Positions 5,969 through 19,460 of a stretch of DNA of 64,000 bases are shown piece after piece. The translations under genes were made by a program, and so were the position numbers. Under the pieces are notes generated by a model. That model did not search any database. It saw only the letters and a program-made list of their open reading frames with translations, and had not been told where the DNA came from. Within the stretch, counting starts at the first letter, position 1, and the number at the start of each line of letters is the position of its first letter. This stretch comes from Sulfuricystis multivorans. Its GTDB lineage: Bacteria > Pseudomonadota > Gammaproteobacteria > Burkholderiales > Rhodocyclaceae. The stretch spans positions 434,001 through 498,000 of the forward strand of contig NZ_AP018718.1 in assembly GCF_003966565.1 (NCBI RefSeq), read 5' to 3'.

Positions 5969-7306
5969 TTACGGATGTTGCCGGGGCTTCACGTCGACGA
6001 TTTCGGTGATCGGCAGATTGGCGATGTCGCGCAATTTTTCCATCCGCGCGCCTTCCTGTTCGAGCAGCGTGCCGACCTGCGAGAAACTCGAGGGGACGAA
6101 GACTTCGCGACCTTCCGGGGCGCGGCGGCGCACGCCGAACGAAACCCGCGCGCGTTCTTCGACCGGCAGCTTGCCGATCAGGTTCTTGGTCACCCAGATG
6201 CTGCCGTGGCGTGCGAAGTCGGAGATGCGTGCAGCCTGGTTGATCGTGTCGCCGAGCACGACGAATTCGACGCTGGTCGGCGATTGGTAGGTGCCGAGCC
6301 ATTCCTGTCCTTCGTTGATGCCGGTGTTCAGGTACAGCTCGTTGAACCACTGCTTGCGAATCTGCCAGGACTTCGACAGGCGCTGGATCTCGCGGCGGAT
6401 CTCGATCGCACAGTCGAGAGCGTTGGCCAGATAGTGGCTGTCTGGCTGCGGAAAGAAGTAATACACCATGCCGTCGCCGACGTGCTTGCCGTAGGTGCCT
6501 TTGTATTTGCGGAAGGTGGGCGCCAGCGTGCGCCAGATTTCGTTGATCAGCTCGAAATACTCTTCAGGTGGCAGCTCGGAACAGATTTTCACCGAACCTT
6601 GCAGATCGGCGACCAGCACCGCCAGATCGGTCAGTACCGGAAGGCGCTTCCTCAGCAGGCCGCGGATCACCTCGTCGCGGCGCGCCAGCAGCTTGAGCAT
6701 CTCGTCGGCCGGCTCCGCTTCCGGCACCAGGACGATGAAGATGCCCTCGCGGAAGAATGAGGCGAAAGCGGTGTGGAAACGCTCCTTGTCGCTGCCGTCG
6801 GCTTCCGGCAACAGCACTGTCGTTTGCACGACAGGCTGAACGGGTGCGGCCTCGGTTTCGAGATAGGCCGCTTGCAAGCGGGCATAACTCACCGGATCTA
6901 GGCCGCGGCACAGGTTGCCGAAGCACTCCGGCCCGAGGCGTGACTTGGCGATCGCAATATGGAAGCCGAGCAGGCTGCCCCATTCGTTACGGCTCACCGG
7001 CAGCAGGCGGAACAGATTACGCTGATCGCTGGTCTGCGGCAGCTCGAGGTGATCGTGGAACAGCACGTGCTGGCCGGCTGGATTGATCCACATCAGCTCG
7101 AAGCCGTGGTTGATCATGTACGCGGGATGCGTGATGTCGTCGAGCGTCAGATGCAGGGGTGCGTCCGCTATACCGGCCGGTTTGAAGCTTGCGGGGCGGG
7201 GCGCGCCGCCTCCTTCCAGACGATCGATGATCTGGGCCATGCTCAAGCCCTCCTGTTTGAGACGACGTATCTCCTCGATGCGGGCGGCGTCGGGAAAAGT
7301 ATTCAT
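5969..7306 (-). CDS. Class III adenylate cyclase with N-terminal PAS-like region
   Basis: A 445-residue soluble protein likely to make cAMP. The class III catalytic domain spans about residues 225-410. It has metal-binding aspartates at Asp234 (VADLQGS) and Asp278 (GDG), the adenine-selecting pair Lys274 and Asp353, and Asn356/Arg360 of the transition-state motif (GDTINQAAR), so it looks catalytically complete. Residues 10-33 resemble the small helix-turn-helix seen in recombinases and regulators (RRLKQEGLSMAQIIDRL), and about 50-150 resemble a PAS domain (DDITHPAYMINHGFELMWIN). No membrane segment is visible. The gene is divergent from the HerA-like ATPase and appears to be transcribed alone. 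The sensed signal is unknown. Confidence 0.82.
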   Translation of the reverse strand: MNTFPDAARIEEIRRLKQEGLSMAQIIDRLEGGGAPRPASFKPAGIADAPLHLTLDDITHPAYMINHGFELMWINPAGQHVLFHDHLELPQTSDQRNLFRLLPVSRNEWGSLLGFHIAIAKSRLGPECFGNLCRGLDPVSYARLQAAYLETEAAPVQPVVQTTVLLPEADGSDKERFHTAFASFFREGIFIVLVPEAEPADEMLKLLARRDEVIRGLLRKRLPVLTDLAVLVADLQGSVKICSELPPEEYFELINEIWRTLAPTFRKYKGTYGKHVGDGMVYYFFPQPDSHYLANALDCAIEIRREIQRLSKSWQIRKQWFNELYLNTGINEGQEWLGTYQSPTSVEFVVLGDTINQAARISDFARHGSIWVTKNLIGKLPVEERARVSFGVRRRAPEGREVFVPSSFSQVGTLLEQEGARMEKLRDIANLPITEIVDVKPRQHP

Positions 7307-9318: not shown

Positions 9319-10536
9319 ATGCGCGTTAGAGACATGCTCGTCAGATCATGGCTGGTCGCGGCGCTCCTGGTTTGTGCTTTCGGCGCAACGGCACAGGAAC
9401 AGAGCGATGGCGCGGCATTCTCGCTGCGCGGCTTTGGAACGCTCGGCCTGGCACGCTCTTCCGCCGACCAGGCCGAGTTCGTGCGCGATCTCTCCCAGCC
9501 CGTCGGCATCAAGGAGGGCCGTTGGTCAGGACGCATCGACAGCATCCTTGGCCTGCAAGCGAACTGGCGCGCAACGGCCGAGCTCGAGCTGGTCGGCCAG
9601 GTCGTCAGCCGCCTGCACTACGACCGAAGCCATAATCCCGAGCTGATGTGGGTTTTCGCGAAATGGGAGCCCGATCCGCGCCTTGCCTTGCGCCTGGGCC
9701 GCATCGGTGCAGATTTCATGATGCTCGCCGACTCGAGGCTGGTCGGCTATTCCTATCTCACGGTACGACCGCCGGCGGATTTCTTCGGCCCGTTGTTCTT
9801 CTCCCATTTCGATGGCGCCGATGCAGCGGTCACCTTGCCGGTGGGAGAAGGGTTGGTGCATGTCAAGGCATTTACGGGCCGCACCCATGAGAAGGCTGCT
9901 GGTGGGTTAGGCATTTGGGATACCAGCGGTTCGCCTGTCTCTGGCCTGGTACTCGACTACACCCACGGCCCCTGGCAGTTGCGCGCGCAGGCGGCACGCA
10001 TTCGTTTCGCAGCGGACATGAACACCGGCTTTCTCGAAGCACCGCTGTTGGCCAGCGGGTTTCTCGAGGCGGCGGCTTCGCTGCAGACGAAAGACAAGAC
10101 CACGCGTTATCTCTCTGCCGGCTTGGTCTACGACCGTGGCCCTCTGCTCGTGCAAGGCATGCTGAACCGCATCCGCCACGAGGCCCAGGTTTTCGAGGAT
10201 TCCCATGCGGGTTATGTATTGGCAGCCTATCGACTGGGGCGGTTTACCCCATTCATCGGGATATCTCGTTGGAAATCGAAACCCCGTGACGATCTGCCCG
10301 CCGTGCCGGTTCCGGTGTTGGGCGAGAACTACCGGCTGTTCATGGCGGGTGCGGCGGTGGATCGGATCACCCATACGCTAGGGGTGCGATGGGACTTCCA
10401 GAGAGATATGGCGTTCAAGCTGCAATGGGATGCGGTGCGAGCCGGCAATGGCGCGAGCTTTACGTTTCCGAATGCCGATCCGGCATGGAATGGCAAGACC
10501 GACGTGCTGAGCGTCACGCTGGATTTTGTGTTCTGA
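9319..10536 (+). CDS. Outer-membrane beta-barrel protein (porin-like)
   Basis: A 405-residue exported protein. It has a signal peptide (about residues 1-25, hydrophobic core WLVAALLVCAFG, cleavage near ATA/QE) and alternating beta-strand-like segments throughout. It ends in SVTLDFVF, where the terminal Phe is the typical barrel-assembly signal. I recognise no specific substrate family. The start at 9319 is chosen because it directly precedes the signal peptide; 9334 is an alternative and there is no strong Shine-Dalgarno for either. It is the first gene of a tight operon, 2 bp before a periplasmic binding protein. It is probably the outer-membrane partner of that binding protein and the c-di-GMP enzyme downstream. 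Confidence 0.7.
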   Translation: MRVRDMLVRSWLVAALLVCAFGATAQEQSDGAAFSLRGFGTLGLARSSADQAEFVRDLSQPVGIKEGRWSGRIDSILGLQANWRATAELELVGQVVSRLHYDRSHNPELMWVFAKWEPDPRLALRLGRIGADFMMLADSRLVGYSYLTVRPPADFFGPLFFSHFDGADAAVTLPVGEGLVHVKAFTGRTHEKAAGGLGIWDTSGSPVSGLVLDYTHGPWQLRAQAARIRFAADMNTGFLEAPLLASGFLEAAASLQTKDKTTRYLSAGLVYDRGPLLVQGMLNRIRHEAQVFEDSHAGYVLAAYRLGRFTPFIGISRWKSKPRDDLPAVPVPVLGENYRLFMAGAAVDRITHTLGVRWDFQRDMAFKLQWDAVRAGNGASFTFPNADPAWNGKTDVLSVTLDFVF

Positions 10537-10538
10537 CC

Positions 10539-10964
10539 ATGCGTGCCTTGCTCTTCCTGATCCTCTGCGTTCTGGTTTGGAGCGCATCGGCGGTGCGTGC
10601 CGAGCTGGTGGTCGTTGCCAACCCGGCGAGCGGCATCGAACGGCTCGGCGAAGAAGATGTCGTCAATATTTTCCTTGGCCGTTACCGGCGCCTTGCTTCA
10701 GGCATCGCTGCCGAGCCGGTCGACATCGAAGACGATACCGCGCTGCGCGCCCGCTTCTATCGCAGTTTGGTGAACAAGAGTCTGCCGGAGATCAATGCCT
10801 ACTGGGCGCGCTTGGTCTTCTCCGGAAAAACACGGCCGCCACGCTTGGTCGGCAGTGCCGAGGCTGCGTTGCGCTTCGTCGCCAGTCAGCCGGGCGGCTT
10901 GGCGTATCTCGAGCGCGCGCAAGCCGATCGACGTGTGAAAATCGTCTTCGAGTTGGCGGAGTAG
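10539..10964 (+). CDS. Small periplasmic phosphate-binding-like protein, orphan
   Basis: A 141-residue exported protein resembling the PstS-like domain of phosphate ABC transporter binding proteins but much shorter. The signal peptide covers residues 1-21 (LLFLILCVLVWSASAVRA), followed by ELVVVANP, a first strand typical of the fold, and a middle segment EDVVNIFLGRYRRL. No ABC permease or ATPase gene lies nearby. It is 2 bp after the porin-like gene and 3 bp before a membrane GGDEF-EAL enzyme with a periplasmic domain. That argues for a sensory role, as for Vibrio NspS with MbaA, rather than uptake. The ligand is unknown. Confidence 0.75.
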   Translation: MRALLFLILCVLVWSASAVRAELVVVANPASGIERLGEEDVVNIFLGRYRRLASGIAAEPVDIEDDTALRARFYRSLVNKSLPEINAYWARLVFSGKTRPPRLVGSAEAALRFVASQPGGLAYLERAQADRRVKIVFELAE

Positions 10965-10967
10965 GCG

Positions 10968-13352
10968 ATGGCGAGGCATTGGCGCCAAGGCATTCTCGTG
11001 CGCAGCTTGTTGACCGTCGCAGGCATCGCCTTGTTGGTCGGTGTGCTCGCGACCTTGTTGGCGCGTCAGATCGTGGGCACGCGTCTTAATGATGAGGCGC
11101 TGACTCGTCTCGCCGAACTGGTCGATACGGTTGAGAGCACCGCTGCAGTCGCCTGTTTCGCCGAAGACGAACAGCTGGCGAAGGAAGTCGCGCAAGGCTT
11201 GCTGCGCAACGGTGAGCTGCGCAGTGTAGTCATTCGCGGTCGGGATCGAGAGTTGGCAAGGGTCGAGCGCACCCCGCGGGAAGACGGCGATCGCGAATCC
11301 CTGCTCGTAGTGCGTGCGCTGCATTCACCCTTCAAATCCGCCGAGACGGTCGGCGAAATCCGTCTGCAGGCCGATCGCGCGTTCATCGATGCGCGCATCG
11401 CACAGACACTTTGGTTGGCGAGTCTGCTGCTCGTCAGTCAGCTGCTGGCGGTGGTCGTCGCGCTGGCCATTGCCTTGATCTGGCTGGTTTTGCGACCGAT
11501 CAAAGCGACTTCCGATCGGCTGCACCATCTCGATGCCGCCGGCGGCGAGCGCCTGCCTATCCCGGTGGGGCACGAAGCCACCGAGATCGGTCGACTCGTC
11601 GCCGACATCAACGCATTGACGGCGCAGCTGGTGGCTACCCTGGAACAGGAACGCCGGTTACGCCGCCAGCATGAAATCGACCAGCGCAAGTACCGCCATT
11701 TGTTCGAGAATGCCGGCACGGGCATATTCGTTGCGGATCGCGATGGTCGGTTGCTTTCTTCCAACCATGCCTACCGTGAACTTGCCTGTCTATCCGGGGA
11801 GAAAACAGCGGAGAGCCGCTGGCTGAGCGATGCGCGTTGGGATGCGCCCGGAGAACTTCTGGCGATGATCCGTGCCTGTCTCGATGGCCAGACCGATGCC
11901 GCGCCTCTGGCGGACGATTTCCTGCTTCGCGACCGGCGCGGAGAGGAGCGCTGGCTGCACGTGATGATGGTGCCGCTTGGGGATGGCAACGTCCAGGGGA
12001 CCGTCACGGATGTGACAAAGCGCAAGAGGGAAGAGTTGGCAGCACGGCGTTTGGCCGTCACCGATGCGCTGACTGGATTTCCCAACCGCGCCGGACTGCA
12101 GCGCAGCCTTGCCGGGCTCGATTCCCTCTCCGAACCCTTCGCCCTGGTGATGATTGATCTCGACGGTTTCAAGCAGATCAACGATGCACTCGGTTTCCCC
12201 GCCGGCGATGCGTTGTTGCTCGCCGTCGCCACCCGCTTGGACGAGCAGCTCGGTGAAAGGGATCGTGTGGCGCGCATCGGCAGCGACGAGTTCGCATTGG
12301 TGTTGGCTGGACTTCAGGATAGGGAAGCAATCGCTGGCCGGATCGACCAGCTGGCAAGTCGGCTGAGGATGCCCTATGACATTCGGCTGGATGATACCCG
12401 CCATGCCGTGGAGGTTGGGGTCAGCATGGGGGTTGCCCTGTTTCCGGCCGATGGTGGCGATGCCCATCAATTGCTACGTGCAGCGGAACTCGCCCTGCAC
12501 AGTGCGCGCATGGCCGGCGGGCGCGGCTGGGCGTTCTTCTCCCCGGTCTTGCAGGCTGCGGCCGAGCACCGCCGCAGGCTGGAGGATGATCTGCGTGCCG
12601 CCGTCGGGGGGCGCGAGTTGCAGTTGGTCTATCAGCCGATCGTCGAGTTGGCGAACGGCAAGATCGTCGGTGCCGAGGCCTTGTTACGCTGGCCCCATCC
12701 ACAGCGTGGGCTAGTACCGCCGGATGTTTTCGTGCCACTGGCCGAGGAAATCGGCCTGATCGGCGTCATCGGCCTGGAGGTGGTCGATGCCGTCTGCCGT
12801 CAGCTGGCGCAGTGGCGCCAGCTGGGACATGTGCTTTATTGCTCGATCAACGTCTCGGCACGCCAGATTCCCGATGCGCTGCCGCCTGCGCTTCTGCTCG
12901 AACGCCTCGGCCACCATGGTTTGCCGGCGGAAAGTGTCGCGATCGAGATCACCGAGAGCGTGCTGATGCGCGATGTCACGGTCGCACGGAGCTGGATCGG
13001 TAGTCTGCGTGCCGCCGGCGTGTGCATTTTTCTCGATGACTTCGGCACTGGCTTTTCATCTCTGTCCTATCTGAAACGCTTCCCGCTCGATACCCTCAAG
13101 ATCGACAAGTCGTTCATCCGCGATCTTCACGCTGACCGGAACGATCGCACGCTTGTCGAGGCCATCATTGCGATGGCAAACAGCCTTGGCTTGCGCGTCG
13201 TCGCCGAAGGTATCGAAAATGTGCAGCAACTCGCGCTGCTGCAGGAGATGCGTTGCCGTTACGGACAGGGCTACCATATCGCCCGCCCGCTGGCCGCCGA
13301 AGATTTCTCCGCGATTCTGGCGCGGGGAAGCGTCATGCCCGGAGACACCTGA
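10968..13352 (+). CDS. Membrane c-di-GMP phosphodiesterase (HAMP-PAS-GGDEF-EAL)
   Basis: A 794-residue inner-membrane protein. Domains in order are: a membrane segment at about 8-30, a periplasmic sensor at about 31-145, a second membrane segment at about 146-172, HAMP (about 173-230), PAS (about 240-355), GGDEF (about 365-525) and EAL (about 535-785). The GGDEF signature is degenerate (GSDEF, 438-442) and lacks an RxxD inhibitory site, so cyclase activity is doubtful. The EAL domain keeps EALLRW (Glu570), the NVSARQ and ITESV metal and substrate residues, DDFGTG (690-695) and AEGIE, so phosphodiesterase activity is expected. It sits 3 bp after the orphan binding protein and 1 bp before a TonB-dependent receptor. 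The GGDEF domain may bind GTP as an activator. Confidence 0.9.
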   Translation: MARHWRQGILVRSLLTVAGIALLVGVLATLLARQIVGTRLNDEALTRLAELVDTVESTAAVACFAEDEQLAKEVAQGLLRNGELRSVVIRGRDRELARVERTPREDGDRESLLVVRALHSPFKSAETVGEIRLQADRAFIDARIAQTLWLASLLLVSQLLAVVVALAIALIWLVLRPIKATSDRLHHLDAAGGERLPIPVGHEATEIGRLVADINALTAQLVATLEQERRLRRQHEIDQRKYRHLFENAGTGIFVADRDGRLLSSNHAYRELACLSGEKTAESRWLSDARWDAPGELLAMIRACLDGQTDAAPLADDFLLRDRRGEERWLHVMMVPLGDGNVQGTVTDVTKRKREELAARRLAVTDALTGFPNRAGLQRSLAGLDSLSEPFALVMIDLDGFKQINDALGFPAGDALLLAVATRLDEQLGERDRVARIGSDEFALVLAGLQDREAIAGRIDQLASRLRMPYDIRLDDTRHAVEVGVSMGVALFPADGGDAHQLLRAAELALHSARMAGGRGWAFFSPVLQAAAEHRRRLEDDLRAAVGGRELQLVYQPIVELANGKIVGAEALLRWPHPQRGLVPPDVFVPLAEEIGLIGVIGLEVVDAVCRQLAQWRQLGHVLYCSINVSARQIPDALPPALLLERLGHHGLPAESVAIEITESVLMRDVTVARSWIGSLRAAGVCIFLDDFGTGFSSLSYLKRFPLDTLKIDKSFIRDLHADRNDRTLVEAIIAMANSLGLRVVAEGIENVQQLALLQEMRCRYGQGYHIARPLAAEDFSAILARGSVMPGDT

Positions 13353-13353
13353 G

Positions 13354-15375
13354 ATGGCTGGCATGCACATCCAGTTGGTGACTCTCTCGGCTCTGCTGCT
13401 CGTCTCGCGAGCTGCGGCAACGGAGCTGTCGGAGAACGATTATTTCGGCGAGCTGCCGACGGTGCTGACGGTCAGCCGCCTCGCCCAGCCGCTCAACGAA
13501 ACGCCTGGCGCCGTGACGGTGATCGAGCGCGAGACGATCCGGCGTTCCGGGGCACGCGAACTGGCTGACGTGCTGCGGCTGGTGCCTGGTTATCTGGTGT
13601 CCGGTTACAACGGCGCCAATCCGACCGCTTCCTATCATGCTCCTCTCGATGACTACGGCATCCGTAACTTGGTCCTGATCGATGGTCGGCCCGTCTATTC
13701 GGCCTATTATCTGGGTGGCACGGCCGACGGGATGATGGGTGTATTGCTCGAGGATGTGGAACGCATCGAGGTGCTGCGTGGCTCGAATTCCGCTGCCTAC
13801 GGGGCGAATGCGCTATTCGGTGTCATCAACGTCATCACCCGTCATGCCCAGGATACGCATGGCGTGGAGGCATCCGTCAGTGCAGGCGACGGCGCGATCC
13901 GCGACAACTATGCGCGCATTGGTTGGGGCGGTCCCGCCGCCAGCTTTCGTCTCAGCGCCGGACGCCGCAGTGACAGCGGCTATGCCAATCTCTATGATGA
14001 CAAAAACATCAGCCAGCTGCATTTCCGCGGTGACCTGCGTCCTGCACCCGATCAGGAGCTACTGCTTTCCGCAGGGGTAGTCGATCGCTCCAGCGGCGAG
14101 GGTTTTGCCGATCAGCCGGCCAATCCACCTCGTAGCCGGGGGTGGCGCAATATCCACCTGCTGGGCCAATGGCGGCAGCAGTCCGGGCCTGGCGAGGAGC
14201 TCAAGCTGACTGCCAGCTTCAATGAGGAAACGCTGCGTGAGCGTTTCACTTATCCTTATGACAATAGCGTCATCGTCAGCGGGGATGGCTTCGGTCGGCG
14301 CGTCAATCTCGAACTGCAGCAGCAAACCCAGCTCGCGAAGCAGCTGCGTGCCGTGTGGGGCGCCGGTTACCGTTACGAGAATGCCATTTCACGGCCGCTT
14401 TACAACACCGATGATCCGGTGGCGCTCCATGAGGAACGCCTGTTCGGCAATCTCGAATGGCGCCCGCATCCGCAATGGCTGATCAATGCCGGCGGCTTTG
14501 CCGCTCACCACAGCCGCATCGGCGGTTACTTCTCGCCACGCCTGATGGCCAATTATCTGATCGCGCCACAGCATACATTGCGTTTCGGAATGACCAGCGC
14601 AGTGCGGACGCCGACCCTGTTCGAGCTGGCCAGCGATGTGCGTTTCCATCCGCAGGATGTTGCCAGTCTGTTGGCGGCGAACAAGCGACTCGAAGCCCTG
14701 CTCGCCTGGGCGCATCAGCCTTTTCTCCTCTACAAGGCGAGCGGTGGGGCGCAGCCAGAAAGACTCAAGGTGATCGAATTCGGCTATTTCGGCAACCTGA
14801 GCGAACTGCGGCTGACGCTCGACTTGCGCGCCTATCTGGAAAAGATGGAGGATCTGCTTGCCAAGGATCGCCGTGCTAACGTCGCCTGGTATGTGACGCC
14901 AGCCAACCCGTTCGGTATTCCAGCCGGCGAGGCCATCCCGGTACAGGATTTTCGCAATACGCCAGGACTGCGCAGCCGTGGCATCGAGGCTCAGTTGCGC
15001 TGGAAACCCTTCCAGACGACGGAAATCTGGTTGAACCAGTCGTTCCAGCATCTGCATTGGGAAGAAGACGGCAACCGGCCTTTCCCTCCCAGCCGTGCCA
15101 CAACGATCGCCTGGTTCCAGCAGTTGCCAGGTGCATGGGATATCACAGTCATCTATCAGTCGCTCGGCAGTCATTCTTGGGGCGCCGGGTCGGGTCCCCT
15201 GCCGACCCAGCAGCGCCTCGATGCCCGTCTGGCCAGGCAATTCGCGATCGGCACGACGCGCTTGGAAGCAGCGATAGCCATCCAGGCGGCGAATGGCAGT
15301 CTGCCGGTGTATGCAGCCGGAAGTGCTATGCAGCTCGAACGCCGCCTTTGGGGAACTCTACGCTTGGCGTTTTGA
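13354..15375 (+). CDS. TonB-dependent outer-membrane receptor 1
   Basis: A 673-residue receptor. It has a signal peptide (about 1-22), a TonB-box-like start (LPTVLTVSRLAQPL, about 32-45), a plug domain with ETIRRSGARELADVLRLVPG and the ERIEVLRGSNSAAYGANA segment, and a barrel ending in GTLRLAF. The plug resembles BtuB/FepA-type receptors, but the substrate cannot be told. The start at 13354, 1 bp after the phosphodiesterase stop, is favoured over the same-frame extension back to 13153, which overlaps that gene. Tight spacing places it in the same transcript as the c-di-GMP enzyme. Confidence 0.87.
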   Translation: MAGMHIQLVTLSALLLVSRAAATELSENDYFGELPTVLTVSRLAQPLNETPGAVTVIERETIRRSGARELADVLRLVPGYLVSGYNGANPTASYHAPLDDYGIRNLVLIDGRPVYSAYYLGGTADGMMGVLLEDVERIEVLRGSNSAAYGANALFGVINVITRHAQDTHGVEASVSAGDGAIRDNYARIGWGGPAASFRLSAGRRSDSGYANLYDDKNISQLHFRGDLRPAPDQELLLSAGVVDRSSGEGFADQPANPPRSRGWRNIHLLGQWRQQSGPGEELKLTASFNEETLRERFTYPYDNSVIVSGDGFGRRVNLELQQQTQLAKQLRAVWGAGYRYENAISRPLYNTDDPVALHEERLFGNLEWRPHPQWLINAGGFAAHHSRIGGYFSPRLMANYLIAPQHTLRFGMTSAVRTPTLFELASDVRFHPQDVASLLAANKRLEALLAWAHQPFLLYKASGGAQPERLKVIEFGYFGNLSELRLTLDLRAYLEKMEDLLAKDRRANVAWYVTPANPFGIPAGEAIPVQDFRNTPGLRSRGIEAQLRWKPFQTTEIWLNQSFQHLHWEEDGNRPFPPSRATTIAWFQQLPGAWDITVIYQSLGSHSWGAGSGPLPTQQRLDARLARQFAIGTTRLEAAIAIQAANGSLPVYAAGSAMQLERRLWGTLRLAF

Positions 15376-15415
15376 GTGATAATGACAAAGAGTTGTCTGG
15401 TCATGCAATAAGAAA

Positions 15416-17377
15416 ATGACGATCAGGGAGAGGGTGCGACGCGTCGTCGCTGTGCTCGTGATGCTGTCTTCCTTGCCGGCGCTCGCCGGGGAGGGCGAAG
15501 GCATTCGGCAAGTGCTGGCGTTGAGTTTGGAGGAGCAGATGGCCATCACGGTGAAGATCGCCAGCCAGATGGAGCAGTCGATGGCCGAGGCTCCTGCGGT
15601 GGTGTCGGTGATCACTGCCGACGATCTGCGCGCCACCGGCGCGACGAATCTGATGGAAATCTTGCAAAGCGTGCCGGGCGTGTATGTGAAAACCAACCTG
15701 TTCGGCGCCAAACCGCTGCTCTCCATGCGTGGTGCTTCCGGCGTCAATGTGTTGTTGATGATCGATGGCGCGCCGGCCAAGGATCTCGTCTGGTCGCCCG
15801 GCATCTTCTGGAAGGGTGTGCCGGCGAACATGATCGAACGCATCGAGATCATCCGCGGCCCTGGCTCGGCGCTGTTCGGTGCGGATGCCTCGGCGGGTGT
15901 GATCAACGTAGTCACCAAGACTGCCGGGAGGATTTCCGGCGGCGAAGCCGGGCTCCGGGTCGGCAGCGATGACAGCTGGGCGGGCTGGCTGCAGCAGGGT
16001 GGGCAGTGGAACGGTTTCGCCATCGCCTTCACGGCCGATCTGGCAGGCAGCGAAGGCCATTCGCCCTGGATCGCCCGCGACAAGCTGGGGAGCGCAGGGC
16101 ATGCTTACTTTGGCCATGACGATGCCGATCTGCATTTATCGATCGCCCGGCAGCATTGGCGTTTGCTGGTCGATCACACGCGCCACGAGGATGTCGGTAT
16201 CGGGCTGACCGGCGCGGCCGTGCTCGATCCGCTCACCCGCGCGAAAGATCGCCAGTCGAGCCTGGCCTTGCTCTACCAGAACGACGCCGTGAGCGCCGAT
16301 TGGGGGCTTTCCGGCGAGGCACGCTTTCGCGATCTGGCCTACGATTCCGGCAACGGTTTCTGGGAGCGGCCGCCGGGGCCCGGCGAGCTGCGCAATGTGC
16401 TCGCGGTCGCCGAGCGCCGGGTCGATGTCGAGCTGATGGCGCACTATCGCGGCCGGCGCGATCATCTGGGGCAGTTCGGCGCTGGCCATGTCTGGCAGAC
16501 GCCGTATGACGTCAGTCAGACGCTGAATGGCGTGCCGGCCGTTTTCGTGCCCGAGAAAACCCGGCGCAATGCCTATCTCTTCGTCCAGGACATCTGGCAT
16601 ATCGCCCCGGAATGGGAACTGACGGCCGGCGCGCGTTACGATCATTATTCCGATTTCGGCAGCACGCTCAATCCGCGCCTGGCGCTGGTCTGGCAGAGCA
16701 GTCCGCGGCTGACCACGAAGCTGATGTATGGCCAGGCGTTTCGCGCCCCATCGTATCTCGAGCTGTATTCGCAGACGGCAGCCAATGCGGCCAACCCCGA
16801 TCTGCGGCCGGAACGCTCGCGCACCGTGGAGCTGTCGTTCAACTACCGTGCCAGCCGCGACCTGAACTTCGGCTTGAATGTCTATCGATTCGTGCGCAGT
16901 GACGTCATCGCGCCAGAAGCGCTGCCACCCTATCGCTTTGCGAACCTGGGCCGTTATGTAAGCCAAGGCATCGAGCTCGAGGCGCAGTGGCAGGCGGGTC
17001 GCTCCCTGCGGCTGAGCGGCAATGTGAGCCAAATGCAGCTCGGCGCCGTCGATGATCCATTGCGGGATCTGGCTGTTCCGCGGCGTCAGGCCTATCTGCG
17101 TGCCGACTGGATGATCGCACCGAAGTGGCACTGGAACCTACAGGCCCACTGGTTCGACCGGCGCCCGCTGCCCGCCAATGATCCGCGCATGCCGCTGGGC
17201 AGCGCTCTCTTGTTGTCGACCAGTCTGCGCTACTTCCACGGCAGCGACTGGGAATTCGCCGCCACCCTCCGCAACCTGGCGGACCGCGACCTGCACGAAT
17301 ACTCGAGTCGTGCGCTGGTGGACAATCTTCCCTTGCCCGGCCGCAGTTTCGCAGCCGAACTCCGCTACAAGTTCTGA
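15416..17377 (+). CDS. TonB-dependent outer-membrane receptor 2
   Basis: A 653-residue receptor. It has a signal peptide (about 1-24, ending LPALA), a plug domain (PAVVSVITADDLRATGATNL, then ERIEIIRGPGSALFGADA near residue 140) and a barrel ending in FAAELRYKF. It differs clearly from receptor 1 in sequence, so it is not a recent tandem copy. It follows receptor 1 after 40 bp and precedes a binding protein by 8 bp. No cobalamin riboswitch or Fur box is apparent in the 40-bp gap. The substrate is unknown; iron complexes, corrinoids or carbohydrates are all possible. Confidence 0.87.
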   Translation: MTIRERVRRVVAVLVMLSSLPALAGEGEGIRQVLALSLEEQMAITVKIASQMEQSMAEAPAVVSVITADDLRATGATNLMEILQSVPGVYVKTNLFGAKPLLSMRGASGVNVLLMIDGAPAKDLVWSPGIFWKGVPANMIERIEIIRGPGSALFGADASAGVINVVTKTAGRISGGEAGLRVGSDDSWAGWLQQGGQWNGFAIAFTADLAGSEGHSPWIARDKLGSAGHAYFGHDDADLHLSIARQHWRLLVDHTRHEDVGIGLTGAAVLDPLTRAKDRQSSLALLYQNDAVSADWGLSGEARFRDLAYDSGNGFWERPPGPGELRNVLAVAERRVDVELMAHYRGRRDHLGQFGAGHVWQTPYDVSQTLNGVPAVFVPEKTRRNAYLFVQDIWHIAPEWELTAGARYDHYSDFGSTLNPRLALVWQSSPRLTTKLMYGQAFRAPSYLELYSQTAANAANPDLRPERSRTVELSFNYRASRDLNFGLNVYRFVRSDVIAPEALPPYRFANLGRYVSQGIELEAQWQAGRSLRLSGNVSQMQLGAVDDPLRDLAVPRRQAYLRADWMIAPKWHWNLQAHWFDRRPLPANDPRMPLGSALLLSTSLRYFHGSDWEFAATLRNLADRDLHEYSSRALVDNLPLPGRSFAAELRYKF

Positions 17378-17385
17378 TCTGCGCC

Positions 17386-18324
17386 ATGGGCCGCTTGCTA
17401 CTCCGCTTCCTCCTGCTGTGCCTGGTCTCTATGACTTTGGTATCAGAGGCGCTGGCTGCGCCCCTCGTCTGGGTGGTGCTGGCCGAGAGCGGCGCTGTGC
17501 ATCTGGAAACCGCGAACGACCTGAAGGCGGCTCTCACCGGCACCGCCGACGTACGCGTCGATCGCGGCGCGGAACTCTTTGCCGGCAGAGGCGCAAGACC
17601 GGATCTGATCGTCACCGTGGGTACGGCAGCCCTCGACGGCGCTCTCGAGCAATTGCCCAAGAAGGATGCGAGTTGGTCGAAAATCCCCCTCATCGCCACG
17701 CTCGTGCCGCAGTCCATCGTCGAGGCGCGACGGGCGATCGTAGGATCGCGGCCATTCGCGGCGGTAGTTCTGGACCAGCCGTTGGCAAGGCAGCTGGCGC
17801 TGATCCGCCGGGCGTTGCCGGAGAGCCGCCGAGTGGGCGTGCTGCCCGGCCCGCTGACACGCCCGCGCCTTGCAGAGATCGAAAAAGAGGCGCACTCACG
17901 TGGGTTACAGCTGGTCGTGGGGCCTGCGGTGCGCGCAGCCGAGGATATCTACCCTTCGCTGAAAGAAGTACTCATCTCCGCCGATGTCGTGCTGGCGCTA
18001 CCGGACCCGCTGATCTATAACGCCGGGACGTTACAGAACATCCTGCTCACCACCTACCGCGCACGGGTGCCGTTGGTCGCATTCTCATCGGCCTACGTCA
18101 AGGCGGGTGCATTGCTGGCCGTCTATTCATCACCATCGCAGGTGGCGCGGCAGACGGCGAAAGTCGTGCGTGACTGGCTGAGGGAACGCAAGCTCTCGCC
18201 AATCGTTTTCATCCGCGAATTCACGGTCGTCGCCAACGACAGGGTGGCCGCTTCGCTCGGTCTGCCGCCTTTCGAAGTCGATGAGATCGCCGCTGATCTG
18301 CATCGGTTGGAGGCAGGGCAATGA
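17386..18324 (+). CDS. ABC-type substrate-binding protein (DUF534-like), orphan
   Basis: A 312-residue exported protein related to the ABC substrate-binding family PF04392/DUF534. The signal peptide is about residues 1-24 (LLLRFLLLCLVSMTLVS). The two-lobed fold is suggested by DLIVTVGTAALDG near residue 65, SRRVGVLPGPLTRPRL near 145 and YRARVPLVAFSSAYVKAGAL near 225. There are no permease or ATPase genes nearby. The stop overlaps the start of a diguanylate cyclase gene by 4 bp. As for the smaller binding protein upstream, coupling to a membrane c-di-GMP enzyme suggests signalling rather than transport. Confidence 0.78.
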   Translation: MGRLLLRFLLLCLVSMTLVSEALAAPLVWVVLAESGAVHLETANDLKAALTGTADVRVDRGAELFAGRGARPDLIVTVGTAALDGALEQLPKKDASWSKIPLIATLVPQSIVEARRAIVGSRPFAAVVLDQPLARQLALIRRALPESRRVGVLPGPLTRPRLAEIEKEAHSRGLQLVVGPAVRAAEDIYPSLKEVLISADVVLALPDPLIYNAGTLQNILLTTYRARVPLVAFSSAYVKAGALLAVYSSPSQVARQTAKVVRDWLRERKLSPIVFIREFTVVANDRVAASLGLPPFEVDEIAADLHRLEAGQ

Positions 18325-19460
18325 CGCGCTCGGGGCTCGGCTTTCGGGTGCGGCTGCTGCTCGGGTCGGTTTTGCCTGCCTTGACCATGGTGCTGCTGTT
18401 GGGCGCCGTCTTTTTCGATCGCTATCAGAACGATCTGGAATCGGTTTTTCAAGAACGCGGTCATGCCGTTGCCCATCAAATCGGCGCGGCTGCCGAATAT
18501 GCACTGTTCAGCGGCAGTCTCGATACGCTCGGCAGACTGGCCGATGCCGCGCGCCAGAGCGATCCGACGATCGTCGCGGTGACCGTGTTCGACGCCACGG
18601 GAAAGCAGGTTGCACATTCCGGTGATCCGCCACATCATCGACTGCCGCTCACCGAAAAACCGCAAGTGTTCAAGGGCGAGCACGTGACGGCGGTGCTCAC
18701 GCCGGTGTTCCAGGCAATCCTGCCCCTCAATGACGAACTTTCGGACGGTCATCCGCCCCTGCCGAAGATCGTCGGCTATGTGGCCGTGGAAATCGCCCAC
18801 GATGCGCTCGAAGCGCGCAAGCGAGAGATGCTGCAAATCACACTGGCGATCATGTTGGGCGGGCTGCTCTTGGCGAGTTGGATGTCGCTGCGCATCGCCC
18901 ACGGGGTGCTGACCACGCTGGACTCGGCACAGACGGCGCTGCGTCGGCAGATGGAAACCGCGGAGCTCTTGGCGCGCACCGATGCGCTGACAGGACTTGC
19001 CAACCGGCGGGCCTTCGACGAGGTGGCGCAGCAGGAAATTCAGCGCGCGCAGCGCTATGGCACGCCGCTGACCCTCGTGCTGGCCGATCTCGATCATTTC
19101 AAGGCGATCAACGACAGCCACGGTCACGATGTCGGCGATTGCGTGCTGCAGAACTTTGCGCGCATCCTGGCCGCATCGGTGCGCACCGTCGATCTCGTCG
19201 GCCGCTGGGGTGGCGAAGAGTTCGCGATTCTGATGCCGGGTACCGATCTGCCGGAAGCCACCCAGGCGGCAGAGCGGATGCGCAAGCAGGTCGAGCAGGC
19301 ACAGCTGTGTATCGACGAGAGGGCGTGCCGCTACACCGCGAGTTTCGGTGTCGCCGCGTTCCGTGCCGACATGCCGACGCTGGCATCGTTACTCGGTCGT
19401 GCCGACATGGCGTTGTATCGGGCCAAACGGTTGGGTCGGAATAGGGTCGAAGTGGGTTAG
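18321..19460 (+). CDS. Membrane diguanylate cyclase with periplasmic sensor
   Basis: A 379-residue inner-membrane enzyme expected to make c-di-GMP. Membrane segments lie at about 8-30 and 172-195, enclosing a periplasmic domain of about 140 residues. After a short helical linker, the GGDEF domain spans about 215-375. The signature is canonical (GGEEF, 297-301) and the product-inhibition I-site RxxD is present at 288-291 (RTVD), five residues before it. It has no EAL domain. Its start overlaps the upstream binding-protein gene as ATGA, strong evidence of joint expression. It is the last gene of the seven-gene operon, and its stop lies inside repeat A copy 2. Confidence 0.93.
   Translation: MTRSGLGFRVRLLLGSVLPALTMVLLLGAVFFDRYQNDLESVFQERGHAVAHQIGAAAEYALFSGSLDTLGRLADAARQSDPTIVAVTVFDATGKQVAHSGDPPHHRLPLTEKPQVFKGEHVTAVLTPVFQAILPLNDELSDGHPPLPKIVGYVAVEIAHDALEARKREMLQITLAIMLGGLLLASWMSLRIAHGVLTTLDSAQTALRRQMETAELLARTDALTGLANRRAFDEVAQQEIQRAQRYGTPLTLVLADLDHFKAINDSHGHDVGDCVLQNFARILAASVRTVDLVGRWGGEEFAILMPGTDLPEATQAAERMRKQVEQAQLCIDERACRYTASFGVAAFRADMPTLASLLGRADMALYRAKRLGRNRVEVG

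Follow-up and report, generated by a model that had tools for sequence, protein, structure and literature searches.

What joins outer-membrane barrels, periplasmic binding proteins and membrane enzymes of cyclic di-GMP (c-di-GMP) turnover in a single row of genes? The question is raised by seven genes in a 64,000-nucleotide stretch of the Sulfuricystis multivorans genome (contig NZ_AP018718.1, positions 434,001 to 498,000; here the window), where module A comprises the porin A1, the small periplasmic protein A2 and the receptor A3, and module B comprises the TonB-dependent receptors B1 and B2, the PF04392 protein B3 and the receptor B4. We favor, at a probability of about 0.62, a reading in which these are two independent three-layer sensor relays lying head to tail, similar in plan to the YfiBNR system and served by unrelated periplasmic messengers. 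An outer-membrane barrel (A1 in one module, B1 and B2 in the other) would admit or report something, a small periplasmic protein would convey information between the barrel and an inner-membrane receptor, and that receptor would use a PAS/Cache-type periplasmic domain to turn the signal into a cytoplasmic output. For module A we propose that the A2 lobe alters the c-di-GMP phosphodiesterase activity of A3 by docking on its CHASE8-like domain, and for module B that the full-length protein B3 likewise controls the cyclase B4 through its sCache_4 domain; we infer the docking, any ligand, the sign of control and the part played by the barrels. The common plan of the modules and the precedents of YfiBNR, NspS–MbaA and PstS–CtpL together lead us to favor control of A3 by A2 and of B4 by B3.

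The A2 protein and the A3 sensor domain

The original prediction described A2 as a 141-residue PstS-like protein, and the PstS-type fold stands, reduced by profile, model and Foldseek to one lobe only. An AlphaFold2 model of A2 (80 sequences) reached a predicted local distance difference test score (pLDDT) of 92 and a predicted template-modeling score (pTM) of 0.80, and Foldseek returned 17 matches at E ≤ 0.001, all phosphate-binding or phosphate-transport proteins, with template-modeling (TM) scores of 0.54–0.64 by query and 0.28–0.38 by target; the top 11 are phosphate-binding proteins (0.61–0.64 by query, 0.35–0.38 by target). The A2 profile aligned with collinear mid-chain pieces of two PstS structures, 4exl (73–123 and 145–183, whole-sequence E 1.3e-4) and 1twy (99–134 and 183–216, E 5.4e-4), each piece weak taken singly. 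A Pfam search of the seven proteins at E ≤ 0.1 gave no match for A2, and 19 of 80 A2-family members matched PF12849 at that threshold (best 2.6e-5). At 141 residues including the signal peptide, and with low TM scores by target, A2 does not have two lobes with a ligand cleft. The SGT motif, which we take to be the oxyanion-binding motif of PstS-type proteins, was sought as SG[TS] and found in 1 of 80 family members, by eye at a different place; the full-length binding protein L085 of the same genome carries RSGTH, and the stricter GSGT pattern matched neither of the genome's two full-length loci. From these models and profiles A2 looks like a single stand-alone PstS-type lobe without the oxyanion motif.

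A role for A2 as part of a normal phosphate importer was considered and dropped on the half-lobe profile, the TM values, and the motif and ATPase tests. The A2 profile had no match among the open reading frames (ORFs) that surround the two full-length PF12849 loci of this genome. L085 (G000:C1:1948642), which scores best against PF12849 in the genome, has permease- and ATPase-like ORFs next to it and by eye is TupA-like (tungstate) rather than PstS-like. In 12 of 22 matched plasmid records the A2-family gene is labeled a phosphate ABC transporter substrate-binding protein; the family so named as transport protein appears to be a signaling part, and if that is true such annotations mislead. The half-lobe domain also occurs at the C-terminal end of two larger proteins (L231 6243-8264, minus strand, 674 aa; L243 3231-4934, plus strand, 568 aa), each with an apparent transmembrane stretch, a long linker and an N-terminal part that is DnaJ-like by eye.

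The receptor A3 shows HAMP (under the cut-off), PAS, GGDEF and EAL domains by Pfam, and carries a degenerate GSDEF together with all seven EAL-side motifs sought. With EAL catalytic and GG[DE]EF motifs taken, on our assumption, as the criteria of activity, A3 is predicted to be a c-di-GMP phosphodiesterase. An AlphaFold2 model of its sensor domain (44 sequences; pLDDT 91.5, pTM 0.77) consists of a long helix, a PAS-like sheet and then a helix leading into HAMP.

Conservation of the triplets and exchange of outputs

Among 274 sampled genomes of the class, the A2 family was found in 88 at E ≤ 1e-3 and in 70, about a quarter, at E ≤ 1e-8; the other 18 have weak matches alone, and several of these cover just a short part of a longer frame that may encode a full-length binding protein. 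We read the best 80 of 572 confirmed A2-family stretches, a sample that leans toward close relatives because it is best-ranked. A porin homologue accompanies A2 in 79 of the 80, which strengthens the porin assignment of A1, itself a weak Porin_4 match. A receptor with the A3 sensor domain is present in 77, usually as the next gene (four on the opposite strand), and absent from three. The outputs attached to this sensor are exchanged: EAL in 46, GGDEF-only in 14, histidine kinase in 10 and other in 3, with 4 cut by contig ends. A Pfam check of nine receptor frames from these loci identified hybrid kinases in L104, L120, L145, L149 and L150; the L132 receptor is a cyclase and that of L156 an EAL protein, and of the two counted as other, L131 showed HAMP alone and L165 no domain. 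The barrel of L103 gave a Porin_4 match under the cut-off. Among the matches listed, the closest titled loci to A2 come from Rhodocyclaceae and Sulfuritalea metagenome-assembled genomes (MAGs), and the MAG titles extend to Acidobacteria, Holophagaceae and Desulfocapsa, where mis-binning is possible.

In the reverse direction, with receptors retrieved from sampled order and class genomes by the A3 sensor domain alone, the A2 family lies beside 10 of 15 (9 of 14 without the window itself). By a motif test, ORFs resembling ABC ATPases occur in 6 of 80 module-A regions of one set and 5 of 100 of the other, whereas both full-length binding-protein loci have one, and one of these two hits is clearly an ABC ATPase; the window has none in its 64 kb, in agreement with the earlier statement that the binding proteins have no transporter genes nearby.

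Module B follows the same plan with other parts. B3 is the only PF04392 match of its genome and scores 42 bits against NCBIfam TrpX, far under the cut-off of 390; the two TonB receptors (159.5 and 158.5 bits) fall short of the 645-bit cut-off of NF053590, the TOL_0244-family TonB receptor. B4 had been described as a GGDEF protein: its GGEEF motif holds, and the description now gains a defined sensor domain, sCache_4 by Pfam. An RxxD I-site five residues upstream of GGEEF accompanies its predicted role as a diguanylate cyclase, and the motif search agrees with the original prediction for both this enzyme and the EAL/GSDEF enzyme A3. PF02653 permeases occur in the genome only as three neighboring pairs, which we take to be Liv-type, and scans with PF04392 and PF02653 (Pst-type permeases lay outside the search) revealed no obvious spare transporter for B3.

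Relatives of B3 were found in 37 of 185 sampled class genomes (E ≤ 1e-8), and 20 regions (ranks 2–21 of the 42 matches listed) were labeled by BLAST rather than Pfam. A TonB receptor adjoins the PF04392 protein in 16 of the 20, the neighboring receptor carries the B4 sensor region in 17, and an ABC ATPase-like ORF appears in none by the motif test. Signaling receptors are present in 19, comprising 17 kinases (in 15 the frame also encodes a receiver domain) and two EAL+GGDEF proteins, and the cyclase output seen in the window's genus is in the minority within this sample. A tblastn search of plasmids with B4 returned general cyclase matches and was not used. The repeated pattern of barrel, binding protein and membrane signaling receptor thus survives comparison, each triplet being conserved, mostly without ABC genes. 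Opposing c-di-GMP outputs had been proposed for the locus; because kinases take the receptor position of module B in 17 of 20 loci and the module A output varies, that opposition is a local, lineage-specific pairing.

Within the genus (19 genomes, the window's own, G000, included), B3 is present in 15 and the A2 family in 13. An A3-like EAL receptor adjoins the A2 family in 9 of those 13, the window's own among them; G017 retains the A3 sensor part only, and G013 has a match to the sensor and, after it, one to GGDEF.

Several observations count against two relays of this kind. Structural matches of the A3 sensor are weak, the only one at E ≤ 0.001 being a WalK-YYCH model; next come a LapD orthologue, through its periplasmic domain, and WalK, both weak. 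CHASE8 likewise matched weakly: 11 of the 44 aligned sensor sequences score (best E 0.0015), and A3 itself does not. In the genus, G004 and G008 have the A2 family and no A3-like receptor on the stretch read, and G008, G013 and G016 keep B1 and B3 without B4 alongside, with only weak B4-sensor matches elsewhere. Five of the 15 receptors of the reverse test have no A2 family within 1.5 kb. In a wider sample (110 A2-family genes in 100 regions, taken from class matches down to about E 3e-16 with weaker ones left out), no signaling gene was detected within 2.5 kb of 55 genes. Among plasmids, L095 from Alteromonas combines half-lobe and barrel with no annotated signaling gene.

The last two points also speak for the strongest competing explanation, doubtful in our judgment, which holds that A2 is chiefly a partner of the porin in assembly, gating or solute hand-over and that the receptor is a loose neighbor sensing the same solute without touching A2. 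Across the wider sample a porin lies within 400 bp of 64 of the 110 genes, more than any single receptor type within 2.5 kb (chemoreceptor 21, EAL 17, histidine kinase 17, GGDEF-only 3; overlapping raw counts with no chance baseline). Within the clade of the window, however, A2 is paired with one specific sensor domain at nearly all of the best loci and at two-thirds of those in the reverse test, and distances among A2 proteins correlate better with those of the sensor than with those of the porin or of the GGDEF domain (partial r 0.41, 0.28 and 0.28; 58 loci, uncorrected for phylogeny), a correlation that favors A2–sensor linkage only modestly.

The plasmid loci, 10 examined of the 22 matched records, are similarly varied: an EAL protein is present in three (two Caballeronia, one Comamonadaceae) and a chemoreceptor in four (Massilia, Ideonella, P. 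aeruginosa and Pseudoalteromonas), L092 has an ATP-binding protein near the A2-family gene and a sigma-54 regulator further on, and L093 has no annotated features. In L095 (Alteromonas macleodii pKD01) the half-lobe and barrel-sized genes adjoin an annotated type IV CRISPR csf cluster.

An unlikely alternative, next in order, would make A2 one half of a Venus flytrap whose other jaw is the PAS-type sensor of the receptor, with ligand capture between the two proteins as the signal and the half-lobe as a general adaptor. If so, the half-lobe would wire porins to phosphodiesterases, cyclases, kinases and chemoreceptors across Proteobacteria and beyond. An orphan histidine kinase of the same genome (L370, G000:C1:946632-947135, 478 aa) carries a relative of the A3 sensor domain and has neither an A2-family gene nor a porin within 1.5 kb; it and its counterpart L376 in G018 are two of the five A2-less receptors noted above. 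This kinase may share A2, which under a split flytrap might additionally serve it.

Less likely still, the binding proteins and receptors could share operons through common physiology without direct contact. In P. aeruginosa adjacent substrate-binding protein and sensor genes are sometimes functionally unlinked, with AgtB/AgtS and PA4985/AruS as negative cases (PMC11113362), a caution that applies to the relay reading too, and the three genomes that keep B3 without an adjacent B4 point the same way; shared physiology by itself would hardly account for one particular sensor domain staying paired with its binding protein as outputs change.

Gene order, neighboring genes and transcription

The seven plus-strand genes (Table 1) were re-measured and agree exactly with the spacing first given, with gaps of 2, 3, 1 (A3–B1), 40 (B1–B2) and 8 bp and a 4-bp overlap (B3–B4), and all seven start with ATG. 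The host genome totals 2.81 Mb in 3 contigs, and HerA-like and MTHFR genes flank the stretch.

Table 1. Genes of the two modules, in window coordinates
Gene	Description	Position	Strand	Basis
A1	Outer-membrane porin-like barrel, 405 aa	9319..10536	+	Signal peptide by eye; Porin_4 weak, under cut-off
A2	Apparent single-lobe PstS-fold protein, 141 aa	10539..10964	+	Signal peptide by eye; predicted fold, profile
A3	Inner-membrane receptor: PAS-fold/CHASE8-like sensor, HAMP, PAS, GSDEF, EAL	10968..13352	+	Pfam, sensor model, motifs
B1	TonB-dependent receptor 1	13354..15375	+	Pfam Plug and TonB barrel
B2	TonB-dependent receptor 2	15416..17377	+	Pfam Plug and TonB barrel
B3	PF04392 (ABC_sub_bind) periplasmic binding protein, distantly TrpX-like	17386..18324	+	Pfam E 2e-9, over cut-off
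B4	Inner-membrane receptor: sCache_4 sensor, GGEEF with I-site	18321..19460	+	Pfam, motifs

Sigma-70-like sites in the locus show no excess (2 versus 1.4 in shuffles). Terminator-like sites number 14 versus 8.8 (standard deviation 2.9) in shuffles; those on the plus strand are intragenic and none falls at a gene junction. One transcript across the seven genes is plausible.

As a unit, the seven genes did not hold together. The A3–B1 junction is visible in 4 of 19 genus genomes (G000, G018, G003 and G010), and G007 is compatible with it, its contigs ending between the modules; in G005, G014 and G011 module B lies between HerA and MTHFR without module A, which is located elsewhere. The seven-gene set was therefore dropped as a conserved unit, since the modules separate within the genus. 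A single integrated circuit balancing two opposite c-di-GMP enzymes is very improbable, as the tight spacing and the four shared junctions that speak for it are outweighed by the genomes with separate modules and by species differing in outputs.

Five loci without module A were inspected, and each has, from HerA to B1, room for one ORF of roughly 300 codons, by eye similar to a DMT-type transporter. On the far side of HerA, 5969-7306 (minus strand) may encode a protein with PAS and class III adenylate cyclase domains (by eye), and homologues hold the same place in several relatives.

Comparison with known systems

Among known systems YfiBNR (TpbB) is nearer overall than NspS–MbaA, the precedent originally named, because it also includes an outer-membrane part; NspS–MbaA remains a precedent for one step. 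YfiBNR shares the three-layer plan, and its receptor is of the CHASE8 class, to which the A3 sensor family shows the weak match described above. Its outer-membrane part is the lipoprotein YfiB, which we take to be OmpA-like, whereas here it is a barrel; its messenger is YfiR, whereas here it would be a PstS-type lobe or a PF04392 protein; and the outputs here range from phosphodiesterase to kinase, with neighboring chemoreceptors among wider-family members. No YfiR or OmpA-like family was matched among the seven proteins in the Pfam search. YfiBNR has outer-membrane, periplasmic and inner-membrane c-di-GMP parts and a messenger, YfiR, that can bind small molecules (PMC4887326), and YfiN is among the best-studied cyclases with a CHASE8-GGDEF architecture (PMC8294551).

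For NspS–MbaA, the likeness is a binding-protein gene directly upstream of a GGDEF/EAL receptor gene. NspS, presumably a polyamine-binding, PotD-like protein, is not a single PstS-type lobe. In Vibrio cholerae its gene lies just upstream of MbaA, and NspS controls the phosphodiesterase activity of that membrane GGDEF/EAL receptor; an outer-membrane gene goes unmentioned in the excerpt of this source (PMC8079147). In P. aeruginosa the phosphate-binding protein PstS binds and stimulates the membrane receptor CtpL (PMC4926252), and here the differences are that PstS is full-length and also serves a transporter, and that the receptor is a chemoreceptor. Compared with PstS (PF12849), A2 matches one lobe in predicted fold and order and is without the other lobe, the SGT motif and any ABC ATPase-like ORF in the window. 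B3 falls inside PF04392 by score, as TrpX does, and differs in having no ABC ATPase-like ORF nearby and in being paired with TonB and signaling receptors.

Narrow search terms, applied mostly at the level of titles, recovered no recognized description of either triplet in the open-licence literature. Set beside these systems, in which the relay principle is already known, what is new is a messenger made of a half-lobe and outputs that are exchanged; if the relay reading is true, a general route from outer-membrane barrels to c-di-GMP enzymes, kinases and perhaps chemoreceptors could be tested directly with three-gene cassettes.

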